Shown here: piece by piece, positions 2,767 through 63,668 of the stretch | How the letters are laid out: each line of letters opens with the position of its first letter | How positions within the stretch are numbered: the first letter of the stretch is position 1 | Assembly (NCBI RefSeq): GCF_032854445.1 | Contig: NC_088300.1 | Coordinates: forward strand, 59,494,984 to 59,558,983 | Source of the DNA: Liolophura sinensis | Lineage: Eukaryota; Mollusca; Polyplacophora; Chitonida; Chitonidae | Length of the DNA stretch: 64,000 nucleotides | Reading direction: 5' to 3' | Translations under genes and position numbers: made by a program | The notes under the pieces: generated by a model | Told to the model about the DNA's origin: nothing | Seen by the model: only the letters and a program-made list of their open reading frames with translations | The model's database searches: none

Positions 2767-5765
2767 ATACTAAAATTGACTATCAAGTAGGAGTCTCGCA
2801 GCTTACGCTCAAAAACAATTAACACCTCCAAAACTGCATTTTTCTGGAGGCAAATAAATGTCATAAAATATTATTTTTGGTTCTGAAACTTACAATTTTC
2901 CAGTGGAATATCATTCAATGTTATGTTAATGTAAACAGAACTCTGAGAACCAGGTAAGGCTGGTCATGACGAAAGTTATGGTCATTGAGGGTAATTTCAT
3001 GTACCACAACTGGTAACTTGATACATTACTATAAAGAAAACTTCACTTCAGAAGGAACAGCATGTCAGAAGTAACTTGTGAGCATGATTACAATCTCTTT
3101 ACCAATGTTCAGCAGAAACAATACAGTGAGAGCAATGGTAGACAACTGAAGAACAAAATCATGACATTAAATCTTTGCTGCCCTTGAAGGTCATTTATTC
3201 AAAGTAAATTCATGTAACATACACATATATGTTGATCAACTCAAACAAATGCCCAGGAAGTCCAATATACATGTATACAACAACATAAAACAAGTAAATT
3301 AGAGAGAGTCAGTTTGCGTTTGGTCGTTGGGATTTAGTAAACTACACATACTTGTGATCAAATTTCACTCAATAGCTGGAATAAGTGTTATATTCGACGA
3401 AACATGCATACCCTACTTCTTCGAATTTTTGGGACACTCGATCTGCTCATTTTAGCCAATATATATACACAATTATATATACACAATTGAGTATTAAGTT
3501 TCTTTTATCTCACATTGCTAGACCATCTAATGAACGACGTACTCATGTCTTTACTCTGGTAAAGAAATGCACCGCAAATGACCTAAAGTTTCGTTGTGGT
3601 TTACTTTCGCACGATTTCGCACGAGTTGGTTGCAAGATGACAGAAGAGAATGATTATACTAATGCACCCAGAGATCATTTAAGTTTTTTACCCCAACATG
3701 AAAAAAAAAAAAATATTAATGGGATAGAATTAGAAATAATTTGCATCAGAATCACAAATTTTTCATGTGTGTTCACAATTTAATCAGCTGAAGTGGGACA
3801 GTGACATTTATGGAGCAGTCAAAGTGTAAATGTAAACAGCCTTGTCTACCCAAAAAGTTTAATCCAATTTATTACAGCTAGCCCTAGGGTTGAATGTGCT
3901 GATAGGTGTAAATACACTTTGTGGTGTAATTAAGGCCTTTTTCTTCTGATGAAAAAATGAAGGGAAAGGTAAATGAAATTGGAAATGCTTCAGTGCATTC
4001 AGGTATATGTATGGGGAAAATATGGAGGCCTGAGCACATTATTAAAAGCTCACATGTTCAGCTATCGTTGGGTTTCTAGGTAAAACAGAGAATGGAGGTC
4101 CATGTACATGTATGTGCAGGGAGTTGAGATAAAAGCTCAGGACCAAACATTTGGCACAATTTTACCTCCCAAAATTGGTAATTGTCTCAAAAGTCACATC
4201 AAGAAATCTTTTAAATGCACAGCCAATTATACTTTCACAACTAATAAAAAGTAAAATCAATGGATAGATAAACTTGAGTACACGTAAACGTACGACAACA
4301 TTCTATGCGCTCATGACAAAACACATTTACACAGCAGTGATATCCTGCTTATGGCTCATCTACACTGTGACATAAGCACAATGTACATTTATACTTAACA
4401 CCAATATTTACAGTCAACTTGCTCAACTTTCTGTGCATTATTATTACATAAAAGTGCATATACATATTATTTTCTCCAGTCTGACATCACTTTCTTCAAA
4501 TTGTGGAATGTTAAAATATATCACACCCCTATCCAGTTAATGCCCACCCCACACACTCAACATCCCGGGTGACAGATGGACCAAGGCTCAACTTTCTTGA
4601 AGAACACATCAAAGCTCCTTTAAAAATAAAATAAAGTACGCTCTTGATAAAATCATTCACTTACTCTTCTAAGCCATTCAGAGCTAAGACAAACCTCAGA
4701 TACACACTTATCTTTACATTTCAATGCAAATTTATACCAGGCTAACTGACGCATTGCTTTGCAAAATAATACATGTAGGTCACCATTATTTCTACACCAT
4801 GATCATTACAAATTACGAGTCCTTCAGAACAGGGACAATCCTGGGCTAATATTTCAACGTGCACATCACACATGTCAGACAAGGGAACTACTGCTGCTAC
4901 AAGAGTCAGGAAACTAGGCCACATACTGATAACATGTTGTCATGGCATTTAGTCTCTAATTACTGCCAATAATTGTGTTTATTGTCATATCCTATTAAAA
5001 TCCATCTTGGAAGACTTTAATATATGCTTAATATCACACAGAAAATGTCCCAGATCAGTATTACCTGAACACTTCAACAAAGTTAATGTTACATATATAT
5101 ATATATAGTGTATATGTAAAGCACATCCTAAGAATATTAAATAACACAATTTCAAGGCATATTAAACTTGTGCCTTGACACTAAACTGCGTCAATGACCT
5201 TGCATGAAAATTGCGTTGTAAGACATGCAAGATTGGATGATGGTAATGTACAATTAATAGTAAAATGAAATGTACACAGAAACAAGACCAAGTTGTACAA
5301 AATAACATAGCCACACATACATTTGTATGAATGTATTTTACAACAACTGATAACATACACATACCTCTAATTAAGGGATACCATCATTATCATGCTTTAT
5401 CTTTGCAGAACAATAAAACTAGGACACATACTGGAGGAAAGTTTTCCTCAAACATTCAAACAAGGCAAAACTACCTCAGTTATTACCAATGCTCTAACAA
5501 CTTCCATGAAGAGACATATCATGACTAGGATGTTCAAGCCGTAAAATTTAAAGAAAAAGTTATTAAAAATATATTTTGCCAAGGCACAAGGACGAATGGT
5601 GCATTTCATGGAAGTGATACACCAGAAATCCCAAAAATACCATATAAAAATATACCACAATTTTGAGAGATCATCTGGGTATTCTCAGCAATACTGGTCA
5701 GCGACATACTGTTCCTGATAAGGAGGCTGTGAAGCACCGGATCTAGTGTACATGTACATGTATGT

Positions 5766-6605
5766 ACTCAGACACACTGTAGTGTATGTTGTCAGATACA
5801 CTACATGTATGTTGTCAGATACACTGTAATGTATGCTGTCAGATACACTGTAATGTATGTTGTTAGATACACTGTAATGTATGTTGTCAGATACACTGTA
5901 ATGTATGTTGTCAGATACACCATAGTGTATGTTGTCAGATACACTGTAATGTATGTTGTTAGATACACTGTAATGTATGTTGTTAGATACACTGTAATGT
6001 ATGTTGTCAGATACACCATAATGTATGTAGTTAGAGACACTGTAGTGTATGTTGTCAGTTACAGTATATGTATGTTGTTAGATACACTGTAATGTATGTT
6101 GTTAGATACACTGTAATGTATGTTGTTAGGTACACTGTAATGTATGTTGTCAGACACACTGTAATGTGTGTTGTCAGTTACACTACATGTATGTTGTCAG
6201 ATACACTGTAATGTATGTTGTCAGACATACTGTAATGTATGTTGTCAGATACACCATAATGTATGTTGTCAGACACACTGTAATGTAAGTTGTAAAAACT
6301 GTAATGTATGTTGTCAGACATACTATAATGTATGTTGTCTGATACACCATAATTTATGTTGTCAGACATACTGTAATGGATGTTGTCAGATACACGGTAA
6401 TGTATGTTGTCAGTTACACTACATGTATGTAGTCAGATACACCCTAATGTATGTTGTCAGATACACTCTAATGTATGTTATCAGATACACTGTAATGCAT
6501 GTTGTGAGATACACGGTAATGTAAGTTGTCAGATTTATTGCATATGTTATCAGATGGAGTATAACACATGTTATGACAAAGATTGTTATATGTTGCCCAA
6601 TACAG
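5766..6605. repeat. 24-bp minisatellite, about 34 copies
   Basis: The unit contains ATGTATGTTGTCAGATACAC followed by TGTA, with drift such as TTAG for TCAG. Because 24 is a multiple of three, the array stays open on both strands and gives 8-residue periodic pseudo-proteins (MYVVRYTV-like on plus, YLTTYITV-like on minus). There is no start context, splice signal or domain, so coding is unlikely. It lies downstream of the ENT gene. Confidence 0.9.
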
Positions 6606-15600: not shown

Positions 15601-18195
15601 CAGGTGATTTCCAAGCTAAAATTTGTCACTTACATCACGGCGGTAAATTTTACGGGTGTATGAAACTGAAGTCCTTGGATAAAACTACTAATCTCACTAA
15701 TCTTAGTCTGATAGTCACAGGGAGCTATTGCTTTAACCAACTCAGCCAGCATAGTCTCAGGGAGCTATTGCTTTAACCATCTCAGCCTGCATAGTCACAG
15801 GGAGCTATTGCTTTAACTCTCTCAGCCAGCATAGTCACAGGGAGCTATTGCTTTTACCATCTCAGCCTGCATAGTCACAGGGAGCTATTGCTTTAACTCT
15901 CTCAGCCAGCATAGTCACAGGGAGCTATTGCTTTAACCATCTCAGCCAGCATAGTCACAGGGAGCTATTGCTTTAACCCTCTCAGCCAGCATAGTCACAG
16001 GGAGCTATTGCTTTAACCATCTCAGCCAGCATAGTCACAGGGAGCTATTGCTTTAACCCTCTCAGCCAGCATAGTCACAGGGAGCTATTGCTTTAACCAT
16101 CTCAGCCAGCATAGTCACAGGGAGCTATTGCTTTAACCATCTCAGCCAGCATAGCCACAGGGAGCTATTGCTTTAACCATCTCAGCCAGGAAAATTGTTT
16201 GCCATGGGGTGAAGTGTGGACAGTAGCACTACATCTGCCTCATCATCACACTAAGATGCAGGGGAGGTTGAAATGCTGTCAACTGTCACTTACCCTCCAC
16301 AGTGACAGACCATGTTGAGGAAGCTGAGGAGTATCATGGGGATGTTACTGCAGATGCCCAGGTAGTTGAGAAACTGCTGACGGTACTCCGAACAGCTGCT
16401 TTCATTTGTCGTCAACTTGAAGTCAAAATACTGTTCAGGAAAACAAAAATGAAAATGAGTCAAAACTCAAAACAAAACAAAACCTTTCTGAAAAAAACCT
16501 GGAGATGCAGACACATTAACAATATATGGCGATGAACCCGGTCTAATAATAGTTAGATGCCAACCACCATTTGGTGGAAAACTTTGGCATATATTCATCC
16601 TTAATTTCTTACGGTACATGTACAGTGACTAACCAGTCTGCAGGCTTTAGGAACTGTCTGTTTGGAAGCGTCCACAGAGAACCTGTACAATGGCAGTGAC
16701 ACTTTAGCATGCTAATACACTGTCTAATACACTTGGAAGAAACAGAAAAATGAATGTAAGTTTATAAGGTTTTTACTCCCATAAATTAAAATCACACAAA
16801 GTCATTTTAACAAGAATATTAGAAGTAAATGGAAAAAACTTGTGTTTTAAGATGATTCTTGAATAAGCCCAAAGAATCTCAGGGTTGAAGAGTTTTGTGT
16901 TGAGAGTTCCATATTTTAACACCATTATACATATACATATAGATGAGGCTTACTTTAAGGGACAGGTACAGGTAATGATATGATAGCATGACACTCAGTG
17001 TCCTTGACCAGACAGTTCACATAACCTTAACAGCAGTTTAGGTTCAAGCAGGTGTACTTACAGATTTGGCCGTGATGAACATGTTCCAGGGCATCAGACT
17101 AGCCAATCCATACACCAACATGATCATCTGCACCAACCTCCATCTGTACAACAGAACATAACATTATACATACAGCCTTCACACAGTCCATGGGAGTTTG
17201 GACTGACTGATTCACTCAATAGCTGATTTATTGGCAAATTAGGCTTAGGCCACACCAAGTTTAATTGTTGTTTCACGGGGAGAGTAAATCTTTTTCGATT
17301 TCGGAGAAGGGCATAAAAATAAAACTAAAACTTGAAAATCATATAATCTGTGTAATATGTAGACCAAACATGTGGATTTTCAGTTTTATTTTTATTCCAA
17401 TTTAGCACTTGTTAGTGTTAGCTTGCCCATAAAACACAAAATATGATTGGTGTTGGATTACCTCATGGATAATCAGACTTTAGTCACAAGCACCTATAAA
17501 TCATTGGAAAAAAAAGTTTGAATATTGCAATGCATTCCTATCACTTTTTTTCTCAACTTATGTGCATCATACATTCCTCACAATTCACATGGGTGTATGT
17601 TTCATATCAAACAAAATCATCTGCCAGCAACCCGCAGATGGTTGTGGGTTTCCCCGGGCTCTGCGCGCTTTTCTTCCACCATAATGCTGGCAACAATATT
17701 TCACTTATATGACAGCGGCCAGCGTTATGGTAGGAGGGAACTAGACAGAGCTCAGTTTATGTATGGTAGAACATAAAATGGCAGGAGCATTAAACATCCA
17801 TGTATACATGTAAGTTAATGTATCGAAATAGAAAATAGTTTTTATCCTATACTTCAAGTGGTATGGGTCATAAGGACTCGCCAGCAGAGAGAAGTAACAG
17901 AAAGTTATTCAAGGCTGACTGCGAGTGAAAGGTACATGAAACATCCATTAAGGTAACCCCTGCCCTCCCCTGCCCTCCCCTCCCCAAAAACCGGGTGTTC
18001 TTAATAAGGGATCCATGAAGGGAAACATGCACATAAGTCATGATGACACAGGACAAATGCAGAAGTTACTGATGTAACACTGGTCTATAAAAATACTTCA
18101 ACACCACACCATTAGCAAATGTTTGAATTACCTTGATACATCATCGTTCACATATATTTATTCTGGGCAAACATAATCACTATTCAGGTCATCAC

Positions 18196-43373: not shown

Positions 43374-44270
43374 CACACCCAGGACACACACTGCACACCC
43401 AGGATACATAACACACACCAGGATTCACACTGCACACTGTGGAATGAGTCACATATCTATGCATAATTTAAAAGAAATTAAGCAAATTAATGTTTTCTAC
43501 TTGCATGTACATGCATGCAGGATACGCATTGCACGCCCAGGTTACACACAGCACATCCAGGACACACACCGCACACACAGGATACACACCGCACACCCAG
43601 GATACACACCGCAACCCAGGTTACACACTGCACATCCAGGACACACACCGCACATCCAGGGATACATACTGCACACCCAGGGACACACACCACACCCATG
43701 TTAAACATGACACACCCAGGATACACACTTCACACCCAGGATACACACTGCACACCCAGGACACACCCCACACCCAGAGCACAAACCCCACACACATGAC
43801 ACACACTGCACAACCAGGTTGCACACTGCACACCCAGGATACGCACTGCACACCCAGAATACACACCACACACCCAGGATACACACCCTAGACAAACACC
43901 ACATGCCCAGAATACACAACGCACACCCAGGTTACACATTGCACACCCAGGATACACATCCACACACCCTGGACACACACCACACACCCAGGGTACACAC
44001 CACATACCCAGGATGCACACCACACACCCAGGATCCACACCCCACTCCCGGGGACACACACCACACACCCAGGATACACACAGCACACCCAGACTGCACA
44101 TAGCACGCCCAGAATTCACACAGCACACAAAGGATAAACATAGCACACCCAGGATTCACATAGTACACCCAGGATACACACTCCACACCCAGGATTCATA
44201 CTGCACACCCATTATACACACCTCATCCCCACGTTTTACACCCAACAATCAGGTTACACAATGTGATTTC
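43374..44270. repeat. 20-bp minisatellite, about 40 copies, with an insertion
   Basis: The unit is CACACCCAGGATACACACTG with drift. The array is interrupted at 43437-43518 by a sequence found inverted at 45629-45708. Long open frames in several frames on both strands follow from the low-complexity composition, with stop codons rare in every frame, and are not genes. Confidence 0.95.
43437..43518 (+). repeat. Inverted-repeat arm, left
   Basis: From CTGTGGAATGAGTCACATAT to CTTGCATGTACATGCATG this is the reverse complement of 45629-45708, with about two mismatches in 80 bp. It splits the 20-bp minisatellite. Confidence 0.9.
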
Positions 44271-44354: not shown

Positions 44355-45020
44355 TTTTATTTTATTTATTTGATTGATGTTCAGTACCATACTCAAGGCT
44401 TTTTAATGGCAGTCAGGTTTATGGGTGGAGGAAACCAGATTACCCTGAGTGACCCGCAGCCCTTGGCTAGGTACCTGGCGAACCTGGTGACTTAAAGCTG
44501 CAGCCCTTGGCTATGTACATGGCAACCCTGGTGACATAAAGCTGCAGCCCTTTGCTAGGTGCCTGGCATTCCTGGTGACTTAAAGCTGCAGCGCTTTGCC
44601 TAGGTACCTGGCAATCCTGGTGATATAAAGCCTGCAGCCCTTGGCTAGGTGCCTGGCAATCCTGGTGACTTAAAGCTGCAGCCTTTGGCTATGTACCTGG
44701 CAATCCTGATGACATAAAGCCTGCAGCCCTTGGCTAGGTGCCTGGCAATCCTGGTGACATAAAGCCTGCAGCCCTTGGCTAGGTGCCTGGCAATCCTGGT
44801 GACTTAAAGCTGCAGCCCTTGGCTAGGTACCTGGTAAACCTGGTGACATAAAGCCCGCAGCGCTTGGTTAGGTACCTGGTAAACCTGGCAAATTAAAGCT
44901 GCAGCCCTTGGCTAGGTACCTGGCACCTGGTGAAGCCCTTGAGAGCTAGATTCAAGCACGTAACATCATTGATCAACGGGCTGATAGTTTAAAGCCAGCG
45001 CTTTAACGGTCTGAGCAAGC
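44355..45020 (-). repeat. SINE-like element containing a 44-46-bp minisatellite
   Basis: The left end (TTTATTTATTTGATTGATGT, TACTCAAGGC, GTGGAGGAAACC) is a complemented SINE-like 3' end. From about 44455 to 44940 a unit made of GCAGCCCTTGGCTAGGTACC and TGGCAATCCTGGTGACTTAA plus a few bases repeats about 11 times. After it, TTCAAGCACGTAACATC and the GGTCTGAGC block resemble the complemented tRNA-like head. The array appears to have grown inside the element. Confidence 0.7.
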
Positions 45021-46024: not shown

Positions 46025-47698
46025 TTAGCAGATAAGTCCATTGATGAAGTTTTTCATAACTTCCGGGGCCGCCGAATCAAAGCCCACTATATCCAGCATC
46101 CCAGGGTCATTAGGGTCAGCTATTGTGAAAGCTGTGGAAGCCATCCCACAGACGATCAGTTTCGCGTCCCAAATTCCTGAGGACTGTCGATACCGACGAA
46201 GCGCTTCAGCAGGGTGAATCGTCCCACACCAGGTTTCACAGTCCGTGTACACGATAAACACGTCATACTTGCCCTTCTTCTCTTGGGCCCAGGTCATGGG
46301 CAGGGCACAGTCCGTGGCCCCCATGGGGATTTTCTGGGTCATTGTTAGCACCTGTCTCAGGGTGTGGTTAGGGTTCACATGGACTGGGGTGAGATTGTCA
46401 CTAAATGCCACCACGTCACACAGCCGCTCCGTCTTTACGGTGCACATCATCATGGCAGTGGCGGCATCAGCAGCACTTATGCTGGGTGTACCCATCACAG
46501 GACAGCTCATAGACCCACTCACATCCACAGCCAGGCAATAACGCTTGTCTGTGGGCTCCACATACTTGAAGGCCTTGTAGAACGCCGCGTCAAGCGCCTT
46601 CACAACTTTCTCTGACGGAGTCCACTTGAGCCTTCCTTTCTCTCCTGAGCCCTTACTGTAGGTTTTCAACCCCACCATCACACTGAAAGGATGGATTCTG
46701 GCGTGCTTTAGGGAGACTTCATTGCTTAGCTTTTGGACTACCAGAGACTCCGCAGGACTTCCAGGGGTAATTAGGTTTATAGCGGTCATTTTCCCCAAGT
46801 TTCTTATCAAAGCAGTCATGGGCATCTTGTTAAGGAGACACTCCCATACTGCGACAGAGTTCAGCAGTTTAGTTGGCACATGTTCTCTCACAAGGTCATG
46901 TTTGCTGATCAGTTCAACAACATCTTTCTCTTCTGTGGATGATTTCGCAGCCTCAACCGCAGAGATAAACTCAAACACTTTCTTAATGCTTTCCTCGCAA
47001 TCATCTGTCACGTAGAATTCTTTGGATGCAGTAAGTCCTTTGACAACATACCTGGTGACAGCTCCAATCTGAGCATCAGCAGGTTTAATGTGGGCTAACC
47101 TCAGTACATCCAGGTGTGTCCAGTCTTTACGATTTCGATATTTGGTGACATGCATGGCCAGTTTCATTGGATTACTTTGGAACTGATTGTACCATTTACA
47201 GACAGCCCTTCTGTGAGCTCTACCCCAGCCTGTGCCACAGCTCAGAAGTTCACAGTATTCAATAAACTCAAACAAGTGAGTAGGAATTCTACAGACATCA
47301 TTTAGCACTTCATAAGCTGTCTTCTGAGTAGGCAGATCCTTGGAGCGAGCACAAAGGGCTAAGGCAAATAGGATGGGACTTTGTTTTGCAGTTCTGCCCT
47401 CCACACTAAATGTCCTTATTTCGTTGACAACCTCTTTCCCTTTTCCATCTGCAATTAACCTCTCAATGCAGGCAGCATTTTCCTGGGTGAGCGTTTTTTC
47501 TTTGACGTAGTATGTACCACCTTCTGAGCCCAAACACAGAAATCTTCTCACCCTGCCCATTGGGGTGACCGTCCAGCCGTACCCGCCGGCGTTATTCATG
47601 ACTTGATCAACTGAGATGGGCTGACCCTGGGAAATAGTGGACTTGTCGCTGACTGAAGCATCCACCATGCTGTACATTACACGTGTTAGATCCTCCAT
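46025..47698 (-). CDS. RO60: Ro60 (TROVE domain) RNA-binding protein
   Basis: Ro60 is a ring-shaped protein that binds Y RNAs and the ends of misfolded small RNAs and acts in RNA quality control. The 557-residue frame aligns from end to end with the vertebrate protein (538 aa). The TROVE part covers about residues 40-370, with RRFLCLGSEGGTYYVKE, DVCRIPTHLFEFIEY, MTALIRNLGKMTA and ARIHPFSVM. The von Willebrand A part covers about 385-557. Its metal site is complete: DVSGS at 392-396, Thr462 in GATDCALP and Asp486 in YTDCETW. It ends GMLDIVGFDSAAPEV..FINGL, close to the family ending. The ATG has a good context (A at -3, G at +4). The whole frame is one exon, unlike its intron-rich neighbours. 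It is divergent from SRP72. Confidence 0.97.
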   Translation of the reverse strand: MEDLTRVMYSMVDASVSDKSTISQGQPISVDQVMNNAGGYGWTVTPMGRVRRFLCLGSEGGTYYVKEKTLTQENAACIERLIADGKGKEVVNEIRTFSVEGRTAKQSPILFALALCARSKDLPTQKTAYEVLNDVCRIPTHLFEFIEYCELLSCGTGWGRAHRRAVCKWYNQFQSNPMKLAMHVTKYRNRKDWTHLDVLRLAHIKPADAQIGAVTRYVVKGLTASKEFYVTDDCEESIKKVFEFISAVEAAKSSTEEKDVVELISKHDLVREHVPTKLLNSVAVWECLLNKMPMTALIRNLGKMTAINLITPGSPAESLVVQKLSNEVSLKHARIHPFSVMVGLKTYSKGSGEKGRLKWTPSEKVVKALDAAFYKAFKYVEPTDKRYCLAVDVSGSMSCPVMGTPSISAADAATAMMMCTVKTERLCDVVAFSDNLTPVHVNPNHTLRQVLTMTQKIPMGATDCALPMTWAQEKKGKYDVFIVYTDCETWCGTIHPAEALRRYRQSSGIWDAKLIVCGMASTAFTIADPNDPGMLDIVGFDSAAPEVMKNFINGLIC

Positions 47699-48655
47699 GA
47701 TTTATCTCTCTTGCCAATCTTATTATCTTATAAAACTATATGCTACGTCCAAATTCAGAATGTTAATTCTGTTAATTAATTTGTTTAGGCCTTTATATAC
47801 TTCCATGCACCAATCTCCGATGTCAGAATTCTAGGATTATTGTCTAACTACTTATTAGACAGATCTTCGCATGAAGACGGTTTAAACAGCACAGCTGTCT
47901 AAATTTCTCACTTCCGCGATGAATTTCACCACTCATACCTTCCTGTTCGCAGTCCGCACCTCATCTGCAATGCTCTGCCAGGTTATGCCAACAAACCCAG
48001 CAAACCCACGTGGTCTGTCAAGTCATCGAGCCAATCAAAAGTCTTCATCTAAAGCTGATGTCATATCGTAGTGGCTTCTCCACACGCTGGGACATAACAT
48101 ACCAATACCAAAATTAGACTTAATTTACAGAGCATAAACATTCCCCACCGAATTACGGAGACCAAGACATACGGCAACACAGCGTTGAGTTAGATATTTC
48201 ACAACAGATAGGAAACAAACGTCAACGTATAGGAAACGCACAGGCAGGAACATTTTGTTGAGTCAACGAATTTATTTATAGCCTTTCATCCACGAATATT
48301 TTAGGCATAATTGTACAATATCAAAATATGACAGCGACTGAGATGTGAAATTAATACACGTACAACATTTATTCTCGGTAATTTTTTAACAGGAAATTCT
48401 TGGTTAAAATGGGTTTGGTTTTTCCACGCTTGCAACTAAACTGAAGTGAATCTTATCATACAATCTAATCTGCAGCATTTCCTAAACAGATTTATGTAAC
48501 CTACACGGTACTTGTAGAGCTGAGCAAGCTGAATATGTATCAAAATAAAAGAACTTATCCCATCTCAGCTGGGTATAAAGGTACTCTGATAATAACAGTA
48601 GGGACTCTTCTGTGTTTAGAGGCGATAAACGGTTCCCCATCAGAAGATCGCCAGC
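47699..48655. promoter_or_regulatory. Divergent Ro60/SRP72 promoter region
   Basis: The 957 bp separate the two start codons of divergent genes. Transcription starts of both must lie here unless untranslated exons exist elsewhere. No TATA box or strong CpG cluster was picked out by eye. The 5' UTR splice status is unknown. Confidence 0.5.
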
Positions 48656-50688
48656 ATGGCACAAGAAGTGAATATCGCTGGACTTTATGCGGATTTGAAC
48701 CGTTTTGGACAAAGTCAGGAGTATGAAAGAGCTGTCAAGGTTGCGAACAAAAGTATGTTCTCTTTGAAAAGATGTGTTGACCTGCATTGGTTTCAAAAGT
48801 TACTTTGTTATGATTACATGATCATCAGACTGGATTATAACAACAAGAACAACACCATAGCCAGTTGATGTGAAACAACTGATAAATTAGCGACGATTAA
48901 TTTAAAATTATGGATTTTTTGTAGAAACTATAGGGTAGCCAGCCTAGCTTGACCTTTGAAATATGATATTTATTTACGGATGTGAACAGTAGGGTGATAC
49001 CTGTATTTATTGTTGACCCCCATATTAGTTTTAACCGTCGCTGTAAGTTCAAGTCTATCTCATGCTGGTTTCCCCTCCGTCCGTAAGTGGGAAGGTCTGC
49101 CAGCAACCTGCGGATGGTTGTGTGTTTCCCCAGAGCTCTGCCCGGTTTCCTCCCAACATAATGCTGGTCGCCGTCATATAAGTGAAATATTCTTGAGTAC
49201 GGCGCAAAAAACAAATAATAAATAAATATTAGTTGTAATAAATTAAGCATTGAACTAATTAGCTGAGTGGGTATTTCAGCAGTGAGTCCCACAGGCTCAT
49301 ACAGATATGGACAAGACAGGGTGGGGGTTCTAGGAAACTAACACAGTTAAAACATGTTAGTTTGTGTGCGCACACACCCTGTCTCATTCATATCTGCTTA
49401 CTTAAGCAATAAATAGTTTCGAGGGCCCCAGCTGGGTTCCTGTTAAGGAGCAGGAGTTCCCACCCTAAAGCCCAGGCTTGGTCAAGTAGACTTCCACGCA
49501 GACAATTTCACTTAACAAAAATGGCTCGAACCCCACCCCGCTTCGGGACCTGTAGATCCAGGATCAATCCTTGATTGAGTCACACCTAAGACTTTAATAG
49601 AGGAAGTTGTAACTTCCTCGTGTGGCGTTCAGCATGAAGGGGATAGTGCAGCGACTGGTAGACCCGTATCAGTATAATGGCTCGGGCGAGTCGGCTTACT
49701 TGCCTTCGGTAAGTCGTCTCAGTGAAGCAGCACTAAATAAAAGAGCGGTGGAAATCCGTCCTGCAACAAGGAGGCACATTACACGTACATGCACCATAAG
49801 GATTCCTTCGTCGTCATATGACTGAAAAATTGTTGAGTACGACGTTAAACCCCAAGCACTCACTCTCTCACTCAAACCCTACCTTATCTTTGCTATTCAC
49901 TGATTCCCTGAAAGGCCCGAAATGTAATATGTCAAAGCCAGCATTGGTAAGCCATCTTTCGACAGTAAACCAGCCGTTTGAACTTTCGAATCGGACTACT
50001 CAAATTAATGTCTGCCATGTTTGGAATTGTTTTTTTTTTCAACTTTGGGCAAGGGTATGGACGGTGAAAAAATGGGTCCTACCCAACATTCTCTTTAAGA
50101 ATAACATGCCCTGCAAACAGAATGTTGGGTGGGATAAAACTTTTTTCTATGAAAACCATTACACACAGAAAAGTATATTTTATTGTGAATATACTTGTCA
50201 TTGGCTTCCTGTCCGGCCTTTATACATGTGAAGGTCTTCCAGCAACCTACAGATATTCATGGGTTCACCCCGAGCTGTGCCTGGTTTCCTCACACTGTAT
50301 TGCTGGCAGCTGTTATATAAGTGAAATATTTTCTAGTACGGTGTAAAACACCAAACAAATAAATAAATAAATGCTTGTCACTGTGTGGCAGTTAAATTCT
50401 TATCATTGAATTTTCATGAATGTACTTTATGGTAAATCAGAATAACTCATGCTTAGTTCCTAGAGAAAATTATGCTTTTTTTCAGTTTTGCAAGAAAATG
50501 CAGAAGAAAAACTCGCTTTTCACTGCAAGGTTGTGTGTCAGATACAGCTCGGAAGATTTGATGATGCTTTAACTGCTATACACAAGCAGTCAAGCCTCTC
50601 AGGGTGGGGTACACTTTCTTCTTTCTTGTTGATAACATTCTGTTTTGTGCAGTACACTTTCATATATTTTTCTTTGTCAGTAAATGTT

Positions 50689-53700: not shown

Positions 53701-56700
53701 GGTGCAGGTGGCAGATTCCTTTTAGTTAATAAATGACTAGGACTAATGACTAGGAAAACTGTTGTGTTAACACAGTGATACAGGAACTTTCCACTAATAT
53801 GACCAGTGTGATATCATGCCTAACTCTTCTCCAGTCGTATGTGGGAAGGTCTGTCAGAAACCTGTGGATGGTCGGGTCTTTCTCCAGTCTCTACCCAGAT
53901 CCCTCTCACCATAATGCGTCCGCCGTCGTATAAGTGAAATATTCTGGAGTACAGTGTAAAACACTAATCAAATAAATAAGTAAATAAATATATAGAAAAC
54001 TGTAGAGGTAGTTGATCTAAAATAATGTTAAATGAATCTTCCTGTCTACTTTTGATTTATGATGTATGAAGCTAAGTTTATTGTACATTTGTGAAGAAAT
54101 ACATCTTATTTTTTGTACATTACAGACCCACAGATGTAGGCCTTGTGGCAGTTGCATCTAATAATGTGGTTACTATCAACAAGGTGAGCTCTTTGTCTTA
54201 GTGTACTATGTTTTGTTGAAACAAGACATTTAAAACGACTAATATACTTATAGATATCAATAGATTACACTTATTTCATCTCCTGGATGTCAGTTTATTA
54301 GGGGTCCATGCTAGTATCCTAGCGAAAATCCTCGTTGAAATCGTTCAGATTATTATTATTATTAATAGTCAGCTTGTAAAATTGCAATATCTCAAAAACT
54401 GGTAAAGGTGGAAAAAGCATACTTTGGAGTCGTAATGAGAAATATATGGAGCAACTTTTGACGTTTTGTGCTGTTTTACCTGTCACGTGATTAAGCGGCC
54501 ATTTTGAATTTTATTGATACGTTAAAAAAATCTTCTTCTCCAAAACGGCTAGACCTATGGAGATAAACTACTTGTTATAGTTTCTAGGTGGATCGCCCCA
54601 CCCGTACGGTAATTTTTTTTTAGTTCTGTATGCAAATAAGACCAAAGATCATAGCTCAAAAGTAGGTCAGTTTTTAAATCTGCTTAAATTCATTACATAA
54701 ACACACTATCTGCTGCCCCCTTGATGTCAGGATTATAAATCTGCAAGAATTATTTTTGTATTTTGTGTTGTTTTCATGTTATGACCAAAAAACCAACAAA
54801 AATTTGACAAACCCGTCCTGTGGAAATAACATGAGAGCTTTGTGCTAGACTGCATGAAACCATTCACTGCAGTTTACCATGGGAATGGGCATCTGCTCTG
54901 TAACAATGTATTCTTTCTGTCTTTTGTCCTTGGCTATAAGTAGAAGATCAAAGCTGCCTAATCTCTATGCTTGTCTTCATTACTTAGCCAATTGTAAATG
55001 ATGCCTGGCAGTCTAGGGTTCTAATCCAGTACATTCCTTTCCATTTTGCGTTTTCTTCCCGTTGTGATGAAATCTTTAGATGCCAGGCTACCAGAAGTGG
55101 TAAAAGACTAGAAGCATGAACCCAGGCAATGCTGTTGGATGACAACTTAAATTTGTATTGTCTTTATATTTGATACACACAGCTGTCATATTTATGGAAT
55201 TATATTTGTCAGTTAACATGATTTTTAATTGAATGGATATTTTAACATTAAAATTTTATCGGAAGAATATGTTGTTTTTGAAGAAGAAATATTTTTATTG
55301 AAGTGCTGCTACACAGCTGTGTACATCTTTTTTTAGGATCAAAACATGTTTGACTCTAAGAAGAAGATCAAAGTCGCAACCTCATCAGGTCTTCACCAGA
55401 AGCTGTCTGCTGAGCAGAGGAAGAGCATTGCCATGAACCAGTGTCTGCTGCATATGTACACAAACCAGGGTGATCAGTGCAAACGACTGGCAACAAGCCT
55501 ACAGAATCAGTACCCTGAGTCGGAGACACCACTGCTCATACAGGTGGCACAGTTTGTCAGGGACAAGCAGATTCCCAAGGCCATCCAACTTCTCCAGGTG
55601 AGTCCGAGACACCACTGCTCATACAGGTGGCACAGTTTGTCAGGGACAAGCAGATTCCCAAGGCCGTCCAACTTCTCCAGGTGAGTCCGAGACACCACTG
55701 CTCATACAGGTGGCACAGTTTGTCATGGACAAGCAGATTCCCAAGGCCGTCCAACTTCTCCAGGTGAGTCTGAGACACCACTGCTCATACAGGTGGCACA
55801 GTTTGTCAGGGACAAGCAGATTCCCAAGGCCATCCAACTTCTCCAGGTGAGTCCGAGACACCACTGCTCATACAGGTGGCACAGTTTGTCAGGGACAAGT
55901 AGATTCCCAAGGCCGTCCAACTTCTCCAGGTGAGTTCGAGGCACCACTGCTCATACAGGTGGCACAGTTTGTCAGGGACAAGCAGATTCCCAAGGCCATC
56001 CAACTTCTCAGGGACAAGCAGATTCCCAAGGCCATCCAACTTCTCCAGGTGAGTCCGAGACACCACTGCTCATACAGGTGGCACAGTTTGTCTTGGACAA
56101 GCAGATTCCCAAGGCCGTCCAACTTCTCAAGGTGAGTCTGAGACACCACTGCTCATACAGGTGGCACAGTTTGTCAGGGACAAGCAGATTCCCAAGGCCG
56201 TCCAACTTCTCCAGGTGAGTCCGAGACACCACTGCACATACAGGTGGCACAGTTTGTCTTGGACAAGCAGATTCCCAAGGCCATCCAACTTCTCCAGGTG
56301 AGTCCGAGACACCACTGCTCATACAGGTGGCACAGTTTGTCAGGGACAAGCAGATTCCCAAGGCCATCCAACTTCTCCGGGTGAGTCCGAGACACCATTG
56401 CTCATACAGGTGGCACAGTTTGTCAGGGACAAGCAGATTCCCAAGGCCGTCCAACTTCTCCAGGTGAGTCCGAGACACCACTGCTCATACAGGTGGCACA
56501 GTTTGTCAGGGACAAGCAGATTCCCAAGGCCGTCCAACTTCTCCAGGTGAGTCTGATACTCTACTGCTCATACAGGTGGCACAGTTTGTCAGGGACAAGC
56601 AGATTCCCAAGGCCATCCAACTTCTCCAGGTGGGTCTGATACTCTACTGCTCATACAGGTGGCACAGTTTGTCATGAACAAGCAGATTCTTAAGGCCACC

Positions 56701-59700
56701 CAATTTCTCCAGTTCAGTCTGAGACCCACTCCTCATACAGGTGGCACAGTTTGTCAAAGACAAGCAGATTCCAGGTGAGTGTGAGACATCATAGCTTTTA
56801 TAGATGACACAGTTTGTCAGAGACTAGCTCATTGTTGGGGGATAGCACCTGTAGGTCTGGTTGGTGTCAGTAGACGTTTACAGGGTGGGATGTCATGTCT
56901 GATGTCTCTTGCATGGCAGGATCTATGAATATGTTCTTGTTGAGACAAGAATGATATCAGGAGATCCTATCTTGACACAGTGAGCTCATGCCGACTTTCT
57001 CTATGGCCTTAAGTGGGAAGATCTACCAGCAAACTGCATATGCTTTTCCGCCGGGCTCTGCCTGATTTCCTCCGACCATGCCTCTTGTTGTCGTATAAGT
57101 GAAATATTCTTGTGTATGGCATAAAAAGCCAATAAAATAAATAAATAAATATCAAGCCATGACTGAAATGCATGTATTTTTGAAAGCAGTGTTAACCAAC
57201 AAACAAGGCATTCTGTACCATTGCTTTGTCAAACCTGAGTTTTGAGGATATATTTAAGTTTGACAAATACAATAGGTTGTCTCAGCACAGGATGGTTTAC
57301 ATTTTTTTTATATGTCACACTCTTACTAAAATTCTCTCATGTTAATTTGCCTTTATTTTAAGTATGTTTGTGCAATGCCATTCCTGCTTTTCTACACCTA
57401 TCAGCTGTCATCACGGTGAAATATTTTGGGGTTACACCATAAATAATAAGATACATGAAGTATAAACAAAAAGTGATAAAGAGATGCCAATCAGTGTTCT
57501 TTTATTTGTTTCTGACAGGGTAAAAGCAGCTCTGGTACTGACATCACAGCAAAGTTAACCATGGCTCAGCTGTGCCTGGCCCAGGGGAGTGTGTCAAAGG
57601 CTTGTGACGCACTTAGATCCCTGGGGGACCTCTCATATAAACCTGGGGTGGTGAGTAATTCTTCCACTAAGGTGGAAATTTGAAATTTTGGCTACCTGTC
57701 CAAAGTTTCTCTGCCTGTGCACATCTATTAACACATCGGTCTATGGAATTCAAATCACGCTCCATTCAAACAAATACAAAGTGCATATTTAAGTTATATG
57801 TTCTAATACAGCTTTTGAATGCTTGATTTTGGCCCAAAAATATTATGGTAATCCTATGAGTAGTATCGCAAATAATAGCTTTTGTTTGACCTTTGGGCAT
57901 TTCCACATGGAAATATGTCACTGAAGGCTATTGTGGTATGTGTGTTTGTGTGCAGGTGTCAGCACTGGTCACGTTGTACAGGAGTCAGGAGGACCATCAG
58001 GCAGCTCTGGATGTCCTCACAGGTGCCCTGAACTGGTACAGGAAGAACGCCCCCGAGTCCCCAGAGTTCTGGTCACTCATGCGGGCCACCTCCAACCTCT
58101 ACCTGAAGAACGGCAATGCCAAGCAGGCCGCACAGCTCCTGGAGGAGATCAGGAAGTAAGGCTTTCAGATTTAACTATTCTGCTAAGTGGAATGTGTTTT
58201 GTGATGTGTTGTACATTGTATGATGTAAAAGAAACTTTAGACAAGTGTGTTTATAATTAGGTGTTAATGAAAAGGTTTAATCTGATATTTCAGAACAAAA
58301 CCTAAAGATCCTCGTATCCTGGCTCAGCTGATAACGGCCTACGCTCAGTTTGACTCCAAAAGGTCACAGGAAGTGAGCAGGGATTTACCATCAGTAGAGG
58401 AAATAGCTTCCAGTGTTGATGTGGAGTCTCTGGAAGCTTCATTTAACATCCTAGGCCCGAAGTACATGAAGAAGCTGCAGAAAGCAGAAGGGGGTCAGGC
58501 ATCTCCAGGGGGACCGTAAGTGGATGACAGTTACATTTACCTGCATTAACAAAATATTCTAAAGGTAGTGTGGTGTGAAATGTAAAGGTCAAATGTAACA
58601 TTAACACAACCCACAGATCTGACTGCTGTTACACAAGTGAAAAATTCTTCGTCATTGTTACACTAGAGCAACGTATACACCCGGCTACTGCTATAGAAAT
58701 GAAAAATTCTTCATCAGTGTAACATTAGAACAACTCATATACCCAACTTCTGCTAGAGAAGAGAAATATTATTTATCACTGGATTTAATACCAGTCGAAT
58801 AAATTACTAAATTATGAACAAGATGTTAACAAAAGTTCATATTTATCATCAGTATATTTCATGAAAGGTTGATTTTATTTAGGTCTGGGGATATGCTGAT
58901 TCAAAAGAAGAAGAAAAAGAAGAGGAAGAAAGGTATTGCTTCTGCGAACACTGCAAGAGTAACAACTTTTATATATATATCTTTCCATGGGGATATATAT
59001 TGATGTACATGGACTAGTGTATGTCATCGGGAGCCTGTGGGCAGCAGGTTCTTGGTGTATGTGATCAGGAACCTGTGGACAGCAGGTTTTTGGTGTATGT
59101 CATCAGGAGCCTGTGGGCAGCAGGTTCTTGGTGTATGCCATCAGGAGCCTGTGGACAGCAGGTTCTTGGGGTATGTCATCAGGAGCCTGTGGACAGCAGG
59201 TTTTTGGGGTATGTCATCAGGAGCCTGTGGCCAGCAGGTTCTTGGGGTATGTCATCAGGAGCCTGTGGGCAGCAGGTTCTTGGCGTATGTCATCGGGAGC
59301 CTGTGGACAGCAGGTTGTTGGTGTATGTCATCAGGAGCCTGTGGCCAGCAGGTTCTTGGGGTATGTCATCAGGAGCCTGTGGGCAGCAGGTTCTTGGTGT
59401 ATGTCATCGGGAGCCTGTGGACAGCAGGTTGTTGGTGTATGTCATCGGGAGCCCTGTGGACAGCAGGTTCTTGGTGTATGTCATCAGGAGCCTGTGGACA
59501 GCAGGTTCGTGGTGTATGTCATCAGGAGTCTTGAGGACAGGTTCTTGGTGTATGTCATCAGGAGCCTGTGGACAGCAGGTTCTTGGGGTATGTCATCAGG
59601 AGCCTGTTGACAACACGTTCTTGGAGTATGTCATCAGGAGCCTGTGGACAGCAGGTTCTTGGTGTATGTCATCGAGAGCCTGTGGACAACAGGTTCTTGT

Positions 59701-61812: not shown

Positions 61813-62074
61813 TAACAAGCAGATAAATAAATACAGACTAAGAAGGGTGTGTTGCCACCTTGTAAAATGTGCTATCACATTGTAAAATGCGTTAAAGTCA
61901 GAATCCTAATTCATCAACCTTTTCGAATGGGTTGATCGGTTTTAGGGCTGCAGAAAGAGTATATCACCTGTTCACACAGAATGATATATGTACTCTCAGA
62001 ATTTGTCCGATTAACCAAAATCAAAGTGATTGAAGAATTAAAAGAGAGTGTGTTGTCAGCAAGTAGGGTGTATT

Positions 62075-62765
62075 ATCATCACTGGATGTAACCAGCAAGT
62101 AGAATGTATTATCAGTCACAGGATGTAACCAGCAGGTAGAAAGTATTATCAGTCAGAGGATGTAACCAGCAAGTAGAAAGTATTAACAGTCAGAGGATGT
62201 AACCAGCAAGTAGAAAGTATTATCAGTCACAGGATGTAACCAGCAGGTAGAAAGTATTATCAGTCAGAGGATGTAACCAGCAAGTAGAAAGTATTATCAG
62301 TCAGGGGATGTAACCAGCAGGTAGAAAGTATTATCAGTCAACGGATGTAACCAGCAGGTAGAAAGTATTATCAGTCAATGGATGTAACCAGGAAGTAGAC
62401 AGTATTATCAGTCAAAGGATGTAACCAGGGAGTAGAAAGTATTAACAGTCAGAGGATGTAACCAGCAGGTAGAAAGTATGTCAGGGGATGTAACCAGGGA
62501 GTAGAAAGTATTAACAGTCAGAGGATGTAACCAGCAGGTAGAAAGTATTATCAGTCAGGGGATGTAACCAGGAAGTAGAAAGTATTAACAGTCAGGGGAT
62601 GTAACCAGCAAGTATAAAGTATTAACAGTCAGGGGATGTAACCAGGAAGTAGAAAGTATTATCAGTCAGGGGATGTAACCAGGAAGTAGAAAGTATTATC
62701 AGTCAGGGGATGTAACCAGGAAGTAGAAAGTATTATCAGTCAGAAGATGTAATCAGTAAGTAAAT
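62075..62765. repeat. 37-bp minisatellite, about 19 copies
   Basis: The unit joins GGATGTAACCAGCAGGTAGA and AAGTATTATCAGTCAGA with drift (AAGT for AGGT, AACAG for ATCAG). One unit near 62478 is shortened. It lies about 1.4 kb downstream of the SRP72 stop codon. Confidence 0.95.
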
Positions 62766-63668
62766 GTATTATTTGTCAGAGGATGAAATCAGCATTTTAG
62801 GTGTGCTGTCAGCCAATATAATATGTGCTATCCCAGGGGCCATTCAGGCTACTTGTGAAGTTCAGTGGTTCTCTAGTTCTTTATGGTTTTCTCATCAATG
62901 GATACTACTATGTCTGTGTGTTGAGATGAAGGGCTTCCTCCTGGCTGGGTGTGTGTTGGTACTGCACCCGTGCAGCGAGTGATCAGTTGGGAGCTGCCAT
63001 GGAAGATACACATTTGTGAAGATAGTTACACCTGCATTCGTACATTCATTATATTACTGAACTATCAACTGACTTTGTTTATTGGTTGCAAATCATACAA
63101 AATGGGTTTTTTTACCCCAGTTTCATTGGACAAGTATAAACACAGTGTGGATATGGCTTCACTGTTACAAGGGAAGGCACTGATTTAATGCTTCAGAATG
63201 TTTAGGACATTTTTTTTCTTACTTCTTCGAATACAAAACAGAACTAAACCAACCACATGATACAGATTAACTTAATTAGCCACTTAATTTATTTCAGAAA
63301 TGAAATTTATAAAGATACAGCTTTAAGGAGCAATCTTTGAATAGTTGTGAACAGTAGTGCTGCTGTACAATTTACTGATAGAAGGTTTTCAGTTGTGGTC
63401 AGTCCTGGCCAAGAAGTAATAACCAGAAAAAAAGCCAATTATCACTTCATAAATTAATAATTAACAGCTTAGGAAATTCTGCATGTGTAACCAATATGTG
63501 TAACCATAATGTTATCAGACCAACAGGGACATGGCTAATCATAAAAGTATTTTTTCTATAAATTGAATAAATGCCCCTAAAACATATATGCCCAAATGTA
63601 CAACAAAGAAGTTTACTGTTCGCTGATAAACTTCTGCATAAATCATAAAATATATTTCAAGATTAGAC

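Follow-up and report, generated by a model that had tools for sequence, protein, structure and literature searches.

The 64,000-nucleotide stretch of the Liolophura sinensis genome analyzed here (the window; C6:59494984-59558983 of a 609-Mb, 632-contig assembly) contains the gene SRP72, in which an 83-bp tandem array begins inside exon 10 and spans the first 1.2 kb of the following intron. We consider this array to be, very probably, a neutral boundary-spanning minisatellite, i.e., a “mirage”, with splicing using the most upstream of its 14 donor-like sites. The array consists almost wholly of exon copies, only its first donor preserves the reading frame, and arrays of the same anatomy start at the ends of unrelated exons elsewhere in the assembly.

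Anatomy of the SRP72 array

Joined exons 10–12 matched mammalian SRP72 over 196 residues (E 1.5e-53), which bears out the gene assignment made earlier from the sequence alone (hereafter, the original prediction). Exon 10 (55337..55597, + strand, as for all gene and array features below; 261 nt, phase 0) was placed from its open frame, acceptor tttttttag, donor CAG/GTGAGT (slash, splice junction) and SRP72 match, and exon 11 (57519..57650, acceptor ttctgacag) from homology and splice consensus. All 13 matches to exon 10 in the assembly fell within the SRP72 locus, so that a second haplotype for comparison is absent. The exon 10 protein had no relative in the genome or viral contig collections; the one eukaryote dataset covered was the window's own assembly.

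Tandem Repeats Finder (TRF) and a table of units delimited 15 units at 55516..56772, plus a degenerate 16th fragment ending at ~56834, with TRF scores of up to 1696, far above chance; the ~15 copies of 83 bp starting within exon 10 proposed in the original prediction are thus real and lie where they were placed. The array begins at TGAGT (55516), within codons P-E-S, copy 1 being the final 82 nt of exon 10 and copies 2–15 being intronic, i.e., the repeat crosses the exon 10/intron boundary as set by homology and splice consensus. A unit composed of exon end, splice donor and intron start, as originally proposed, does not fit the 29-nt spacer GTGAGTCCGAGACACCACTGCTCATACAG, which is identical to exon bases 55515..55543 at 27/29 positions (counted by hand on the first spacer). 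Because the spacer is itself exon-derived, the unit is essentially all exon, with GTGAGT formed where copies meet. When the exon was compared with the copy 83 nt downstream, the homology had a sharp left edge at TGAGT 55516, and the repeated piece corresponded to the exon from TGAGT to its last CAG, plus one G. Since the final 82 nt of the exon open with TGAGT, inter-copy junctions read CAG/GTGAGT, which recreates a strong 5' splice site.

Units 1–13 differed pairwise at 0 to 9 of 83 bases (unit 6 taken without its internal duplication, units 14–16 excluded). An exon-like part of 54 nt without stop, originally ascribed to every unit, was found in general, the exceptions being unit 5 (55876..55929), which carries an in-frame TAG, unit 6 (55959..56048), which an internal 36-bp tandem duplication extends in frame to 90 nt, and unit 15, shortened to 34 nt ahead of GTGAGT. 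The 3' edge (56659..56834) is decayed, with unit 14 donorless, unit 15 truncated and unit 16 a fragment. No exact match to a 32-base stretch of the unit was found in the viral contig collection, and a tRNA scan of the window found none.

These features suggest how the array may have arisen. A segment of exon 10 that reaches to its splice donor would have been tandemly duplicated, and the duplication would then have been amplified into the intron through unequal exchange or slippage. The TGAGT of the exon and that of the old donor may have served as the direct repeats that started slippage; alternatively, the exon's TGAGT may simply have replaced the old donor. In the model of Haber and Louis, as summarized in PMC3389668, minisatellites are born between short direct repeats of 5–10 bp. 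The duplicated stretch of exon is bounded on either side by a 5-bp TGAGT, a present-day state in one genome that may reflect such a configuration.

Splice signals and reading frames

The array carries 14 donor-like sites: 11 CAG/GTGAGT, AAG/GTGAGT (unit 7), CGG/GTGAGT (unit 10), and CAG/GTGGGT (unit 13). The GTGAGT originally expected after each unit is hence present in most of them, with GTGGGT in unit 13 and no donor in unit 14. All 11 occurrences of CAGGTGAGT on the + strand of the window lie in the array, and the - strand has none. Donors of units 1–13 agreed with CAGGTAAGT at 7 or 8 of 9 bases. To score splice signals we used matrices built from SRP72 alone (13 donors and 15 acceptors that we placed ourselves), i.e., a small, single-gene set. 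By this measure array donors scored 7.4, within the range of real donors (1.7 to 10.0); among 747 other GTs of SRP72, 10 scored at least as high. The AGs of copies 2–13, scored with the gene's own acceptor matrix, averaged −7.6, whereas the 15 real acceptors scored 2.4 to 13.5 (leave-one-out), so that by matrix score the units lack a usable 3' splice site in front of them. Even the 669 other AGs of the gene averaged −5.35, with 35% scoring below the array mean. In the original prediction, weak pyrimidine tracts before the AGs had been read as favoring decoy donors. In addition, adjacent units are separated by 29 nt, compared with 138 nt for the shortest of the 13 introns in the gene model.

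Among the 14 donors, only donor 1 (55598..55603) keeps the frame into exon 11. Joined in this way, the frame is open across the placeable exons to a stop in the last exon, and the protein shows no insert relative to mammalian SRP72, being 2 residues shorter there. Joining exon 11 to any of donors 2–14 (starts 55681, 55764, 55847, 55930, 56049, 56132, 56215, 56298, 56381, 56464, 56547, 56630 and 56775, the last ending at 56780) produced a premature stop, in each case 115 or 127 codons from the exon 10 start. Splicing would most likely take the most upstream donor. If the first donor is taken, copies 2–15 stay silent in the intron and free of coding constraint, while occasional use of a later donor would yield an early-stop mRNA. 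The alternative offered within the original prediction, many donors of which one is used and the rest act as decoys, is therefore better supported by the weak array acceptors and the frame effects than its headline of in-frame mini-exons (see below).

Donor-motif arrays across the assembly

Next, we searched the whole assembly for three CAGGTRAGT at gaps of 56–86, using the reversed pattern as a control. Counts are of matches rather than arrays and are lower bounds on which a few long arrays weigh heavily. Donor triples numbered at least 653 + 1001, compared with at least 65 + 88 for the reversed pattern, a 10.8-fold excess; single CAGGTRAGT sites numbered at least 9743 + 10161 versus at least 3834 + 3746 reversed, i.e., 2.6-fold, so that triples are over-represented beyond the motif itself. 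The one-letter variant CAGCTRAGT, which lacks the GT, gave at least 141 + 58 triples, some of them inside a donor array. Acceptor-like triples (TTTGCAGG; one acceptor form only) were in 1.9-fold excess (at least 53 + 95 versus at least 48 + 29 reversed).

We then examined the exons at which donor arrays start in two samples. Sample 1 comprised 12 distinct arrays among the matches listed in the first 7 Mb of C1 (L039–L050), whose 460-bp upstream flanks were all compared with Pfam, with some segments omitted for L040, L044, L045 and L048. This same-format test gave matches to SUFU, Fe-hydrogenase and fucosidase (0.0011), and the starts of 3 of the 12 arrays coincide precisely with the donors of exons directly supported by homology. 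These are an exon of a SUFU-like gene (Pfam 1.2e-9; PDB 1m1l 1.5e-14), one of an iron-hydrogenase-like gene (Pfam 1.5e-12; PDB 4e-7; 2.2e-25 in NCBIfam when the exon pair across the array is joined), which we take to be of the CIAO3/NARF kind, and one of an alpha-L-fucosidase (PDB 7pls 1.2e-11; Pfam 2.1e-4, below the cut-off). For the SUFU-like and Fe-hydrogenase-like genes, the next exon was found beyond the array. Two further arrays were linked to genes indirectly: in a TRPM-like gene the match is to the preceding exon (PDB 2.6e-13) and not to the one adjoining the array, and in a Dus-domain gene the domain is encoded on the same strand ~3.5 kb upstream (2.7e-10), with an unmatched exon-like frame at the array. 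The flanks of the other 7 arrays showed no exon homology. In one of these 7, L045 (oriented ~3481), a frame without database match, presumably polycystin-like, ends in CAG/GCGAGT, a possible GC donor, before a GTAAGT array.

Sample 2 comprised 26 arrays on C1–C13, fetched with 700 bp upstream (741 bp in all). They came from 31 distinct arrays among the matches listed (at least 143 matches versus at least 21 reversed), after exclusion of three sample 1 arrays, SRP72 and one of two similar C3 loci. Exon-like or selected segments were compared with Pfam for 22 of the 26, leaving out L064, L065, L081 and L086; L071, L074 and L076 were submitted as short pieces in one query, and all seven of these arrays seem to extend past the fetched edge. 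Pfam matched the abutting exon in 12 cases, 8 of them above its cut-off: NAGLU (1.3e-20), DNA-PKcs (7.5e-16), ACBP (3.4e-14), MeaB (2.7e-13), mit_SMPDase (2.8e-7), Ephrin_rec_like (5.4e-6), BTK (8.8e-6) and RCC1 (5.9e-5). Matches below the cut-off were Roc (1.7e-5), Myosin_TH1 (1.7e-5), EGF (4.5e-4) and Ion_trans (1.5e-3). In all 12 matched exons the frame stays open to the first donor-like site of the array, 0 to 90 nt past the match; this openness is partly by choice, since segments were picked as open frames, whereas the donor position was not chosen. The listed unit holds 17–65 nt of exon end in 10 of these exons, and 8 and 13 nt in the other two. Overall, an exon end with direct homology support marks the start of 15 of the 38 sampled arrays, and 2 more are supported indirectly. 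Separately, tandem donor motifs occur on both strands at two loci (G000:C3:23425429-23426172 and C3:23531040-23531294), interleaved at the second; the one flank searched there (L068) gave no Pfam match.

As controls we used 23 CAGCTRAGT arrays among the matches listed, excluding one entry inside the Fe-hydrogenase-like donor array. Flanks were 470 bp for 12 of them and 741 bp for 11, and nearly all segments were passed to Pfam (L093 and L095 merged; L093, L095, L091, L098 and L099 trimmed). None of the 23 gave a Pfam match above the cut-off, and weak matches below it (DUF6598, 6.1e-5; Dbr1_C, 0.014) were counted as none. Control L099 (C8:48023964-48024704) is preceded by an exon matching Bloom helicase (PDB 1.6e-7), and the unit of this array, TTTGCAG/CTGAGTGCC, resembles an amplified 3' splice site together with the start of an exon. 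An exon abutted the array at its donor in 17/38 cases versus 0/23 controls (Fisher 6.7e-5). The comparison gave 10/38 versus 0/23 for Pfam matches above the cut-off only (0.009) and 13/38 versus 1/23 for E values up to 1e-3 (0.010); with the first 12 controls alone it was not significant (10/38 versus 0/12, 0.09; 13/38 versus 1/12, 0.14). These P values are soft because most of the exon-like segments at donor arrays were picked by eye; the harder fact is the coincidence of exon end with first array donor.

Extrapolating from ~12 arrays per 100 listed matches to the 1654 matches of this one spacing class yields ~200 donor-motif arrays, and with nearly half at exon ends in the sample, these would affect on the order of 100 genes. 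That 5' splice sites are on this scale a preferred birthplace of minisatellites in this genome is a proposition we find about as easy to accept as to doubt. A possible reason is that a duplication across a donor leaves exon and donor intact in front while the remainder goes into the intron, whereas a duplication across an acceptor would not leave an intact exon and signal in that way. In the animal carrying the SRP72 array, duplications across donors may thus be harmless and free to grow, which would explain why donor arrays outnumber acceptor arrays. Older arrays may also silence surplus donors through changes of the +1 G. This base was among the more variable positions in 4 of 8 arrays (ranks 4/40, 1/45, 4/38 and 6/43; 39/82, 21/45, 22/85 and 16/88 in the other four), a pattern noticed post hoc that could reflect decoy silencing or one old change spread by exchange. 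In SRP72, units 1–13 show no +1 G variation. In the four arrays with the variable +1 G (L049, L047, L048 and L050, all on C1), this base is replaced by C, A or T, and the altered copies often take turns with intact donors along the array.

Related systems and alternative explanations

Several described systems share parts of this anatomy. In amphioxus, mirages are minisatellite-like tandem duplications of exon–intron boundaries in Adh3 and the globins BflGb6 and BflGb9, with length instability and a proposed role in intron gain, and RT-PCR and Adh3 data suggest, according to the authors, that regular splicing is undisturbed (PMC3087553). The SRP72 array shares with these the boundary-spanning copies, many with splice signals, edges outside homogenization, and occurrence in several genes per genome, and given these anatomical features we assign it to the mirages as a putative member. 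It differs in that amphioxus units measure 10–72 bp (Adh3) or ~150–160 bp and occur at both 5' and 3' boundaries, while the SRP72 unit is almost wholly exon-derived. Intron 7 of human F7 contains a variable number of 37-bp repeats, the first with the authentic donor, and the most upstream donor alone is normally used (PMC6627357). SRP72 resembles F7 in having highly similar consecutive repeats behind an exon, with the putative authentic donor in the first and near-identical pseudo-donors after it; F7 was tested in cells, whereas SRP72, with its 83-bp unit, 14 donor-like sites and exon-derived spacer containing an AG, is known from sequence alone. Finally, the Rogers model of intron gain by tandem duplication, exemplified by ATP2A1 and by 24-bp arrays in fission yeast (PMC4974935), likewise involves an exonic AGGT-containing segment in tandem and an intron built of exon copies. 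The SRP72 intron, unlike introns under that model, may predate the array and have been lengthened by it, and no new intron was demonstrated. The literature searched, which mostly excluded subscription papers, yielded no published survey that counts such arrays across a genome and compares 5' with 3' ends.

The headline of the original prediction was that non-adjacent units are spliced in as 18-residue cassettes, making the helical domain of SRP72 variable in length. Its arithmetic is correct: a splice that leads from donor 1 past the adjacent unit takes out 112, 195 ... nt, each of units 1–13 is preceded by an AG and followed by a donor-like site, and 10 of 11 single-unit inclusions (units 3–13) are open to the normal stop, with unit 6 adding 30 residues and unit 5 ending in its stop. 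We nevertheless regard such a device as very improbable, with array acceptors scoring below the average non-splice AG, 29-nt gaps, units 14 and 15 broken, no insert at this site in mammalian SRP72, and 18 residues differing from the TPR length of 34 residues. Nor do the units carry any sign of coding constraint. Variable positions among units 1–13 number 6/54 in the exon part and 9/29 in the spacer, and all six in the exon part are non-synonymous or stop, compared with 22–28% synonymous expected without constraint; by our arithmetic zero of six has a chance of ~0.2 at that rate, six being too few to prove neutrality. A reading in which some transcripts use donors 2–14, so that copy number tunes SRP72 mRNA decay through unproductive splicing, is unlikely, if somewhat easier to entertain. 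All 13 later donors lead to premature stops and most donors are equally strong, but only the most upstream donor is chosen in the F7 precedent, and like arrays at exon ends of unrelated genes argue for tolerance over gene-specific control.

Two further readings seem to us barely credible. Under one, modeled on Rogers, the exon-internal CATACAG/GTGGCA of copy 1 would be joined to its counterpart in a later copy, so that n x 83 nt are excised as a silent intron and the protein stays nearly unchanged. With unit 4 or 13 as the partner of copy 1 the protein is indeed identical, and with unit 2, 8, 11 or 12 it shows only an I to V change, but the AG lacks a pyrimidine tract and GTGGCA is, judged by eye rather than by a score, distant from the donor consensus. 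Under the other, the array would be an artefact of assembly, stemming from a single haplotype or from collapsed reads. The evidence does come from a single assembly; however, the units can be told apart by their own differences, the array has a decayed edge, and the same anatomy recurs at unrelated genes of that assembly.

Some observations also weigh against a neutral mirage spliced at its first donor. Full silence would be surprising for as many as eleven intact consensus donors, and the first-donor rule was tested in mammals rather than in the animal carrying the SRP72 array. No exon was shown at the start of 21 of the 38 sampled donor arrays. The exon part of the units is less variable than the spacer (Fisher 0.036), which could hint at constraint. 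We do not take it as such because the difference rests on one block common to units 12–13, after collapsing of which the Fisher value becomes 0.33; concerted exchange with exon 10 would also lower variability in the exon part. Any role of the array as a device would have to be inferred.

Other features of the window

The window contains six more minisatellites of >470 bp (5749-6534, 15711-16189, 43518-44222, 44456-44933, 59017-59699 and 62057-62794), which were compared with the SRP72 exons only. The one at 59017-59699 (38 bp x 18) is located within an intron further along SRP72, ~85 bp past the donor of the exon before it. A similar short interspersed element with a ATAAATAAATA-like tail occurs at ~50200-50370, 53860-53990 and 57040-57155, in or near SRP72 introns. 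Beside SRP72, a 558-codon open frame on the - strand (46025-47701) presumably encodes a relative of the Ro60/TROVE RNA-binding protein, which would make it another RNA-particle gene.

Implications for splicing and minisatellite birth

On the reading we favor, a neutral boundary-spanning minisatellite, a gene for a universal particle with 14 donor-like sites in a row works by splicing picking the first. Arrays of this type at the ends of unrelated exons would provide natural test cases for the first-donor rule in a non-mammalian genome, and the 5' versus 3' contrast (10.8 versus 1.9 times the reversed control) is a checkable prediction of the tolerance model. These arrays could also inform on the origin of new introns and mini-exons from exon copies, and on where minisatellites are born.

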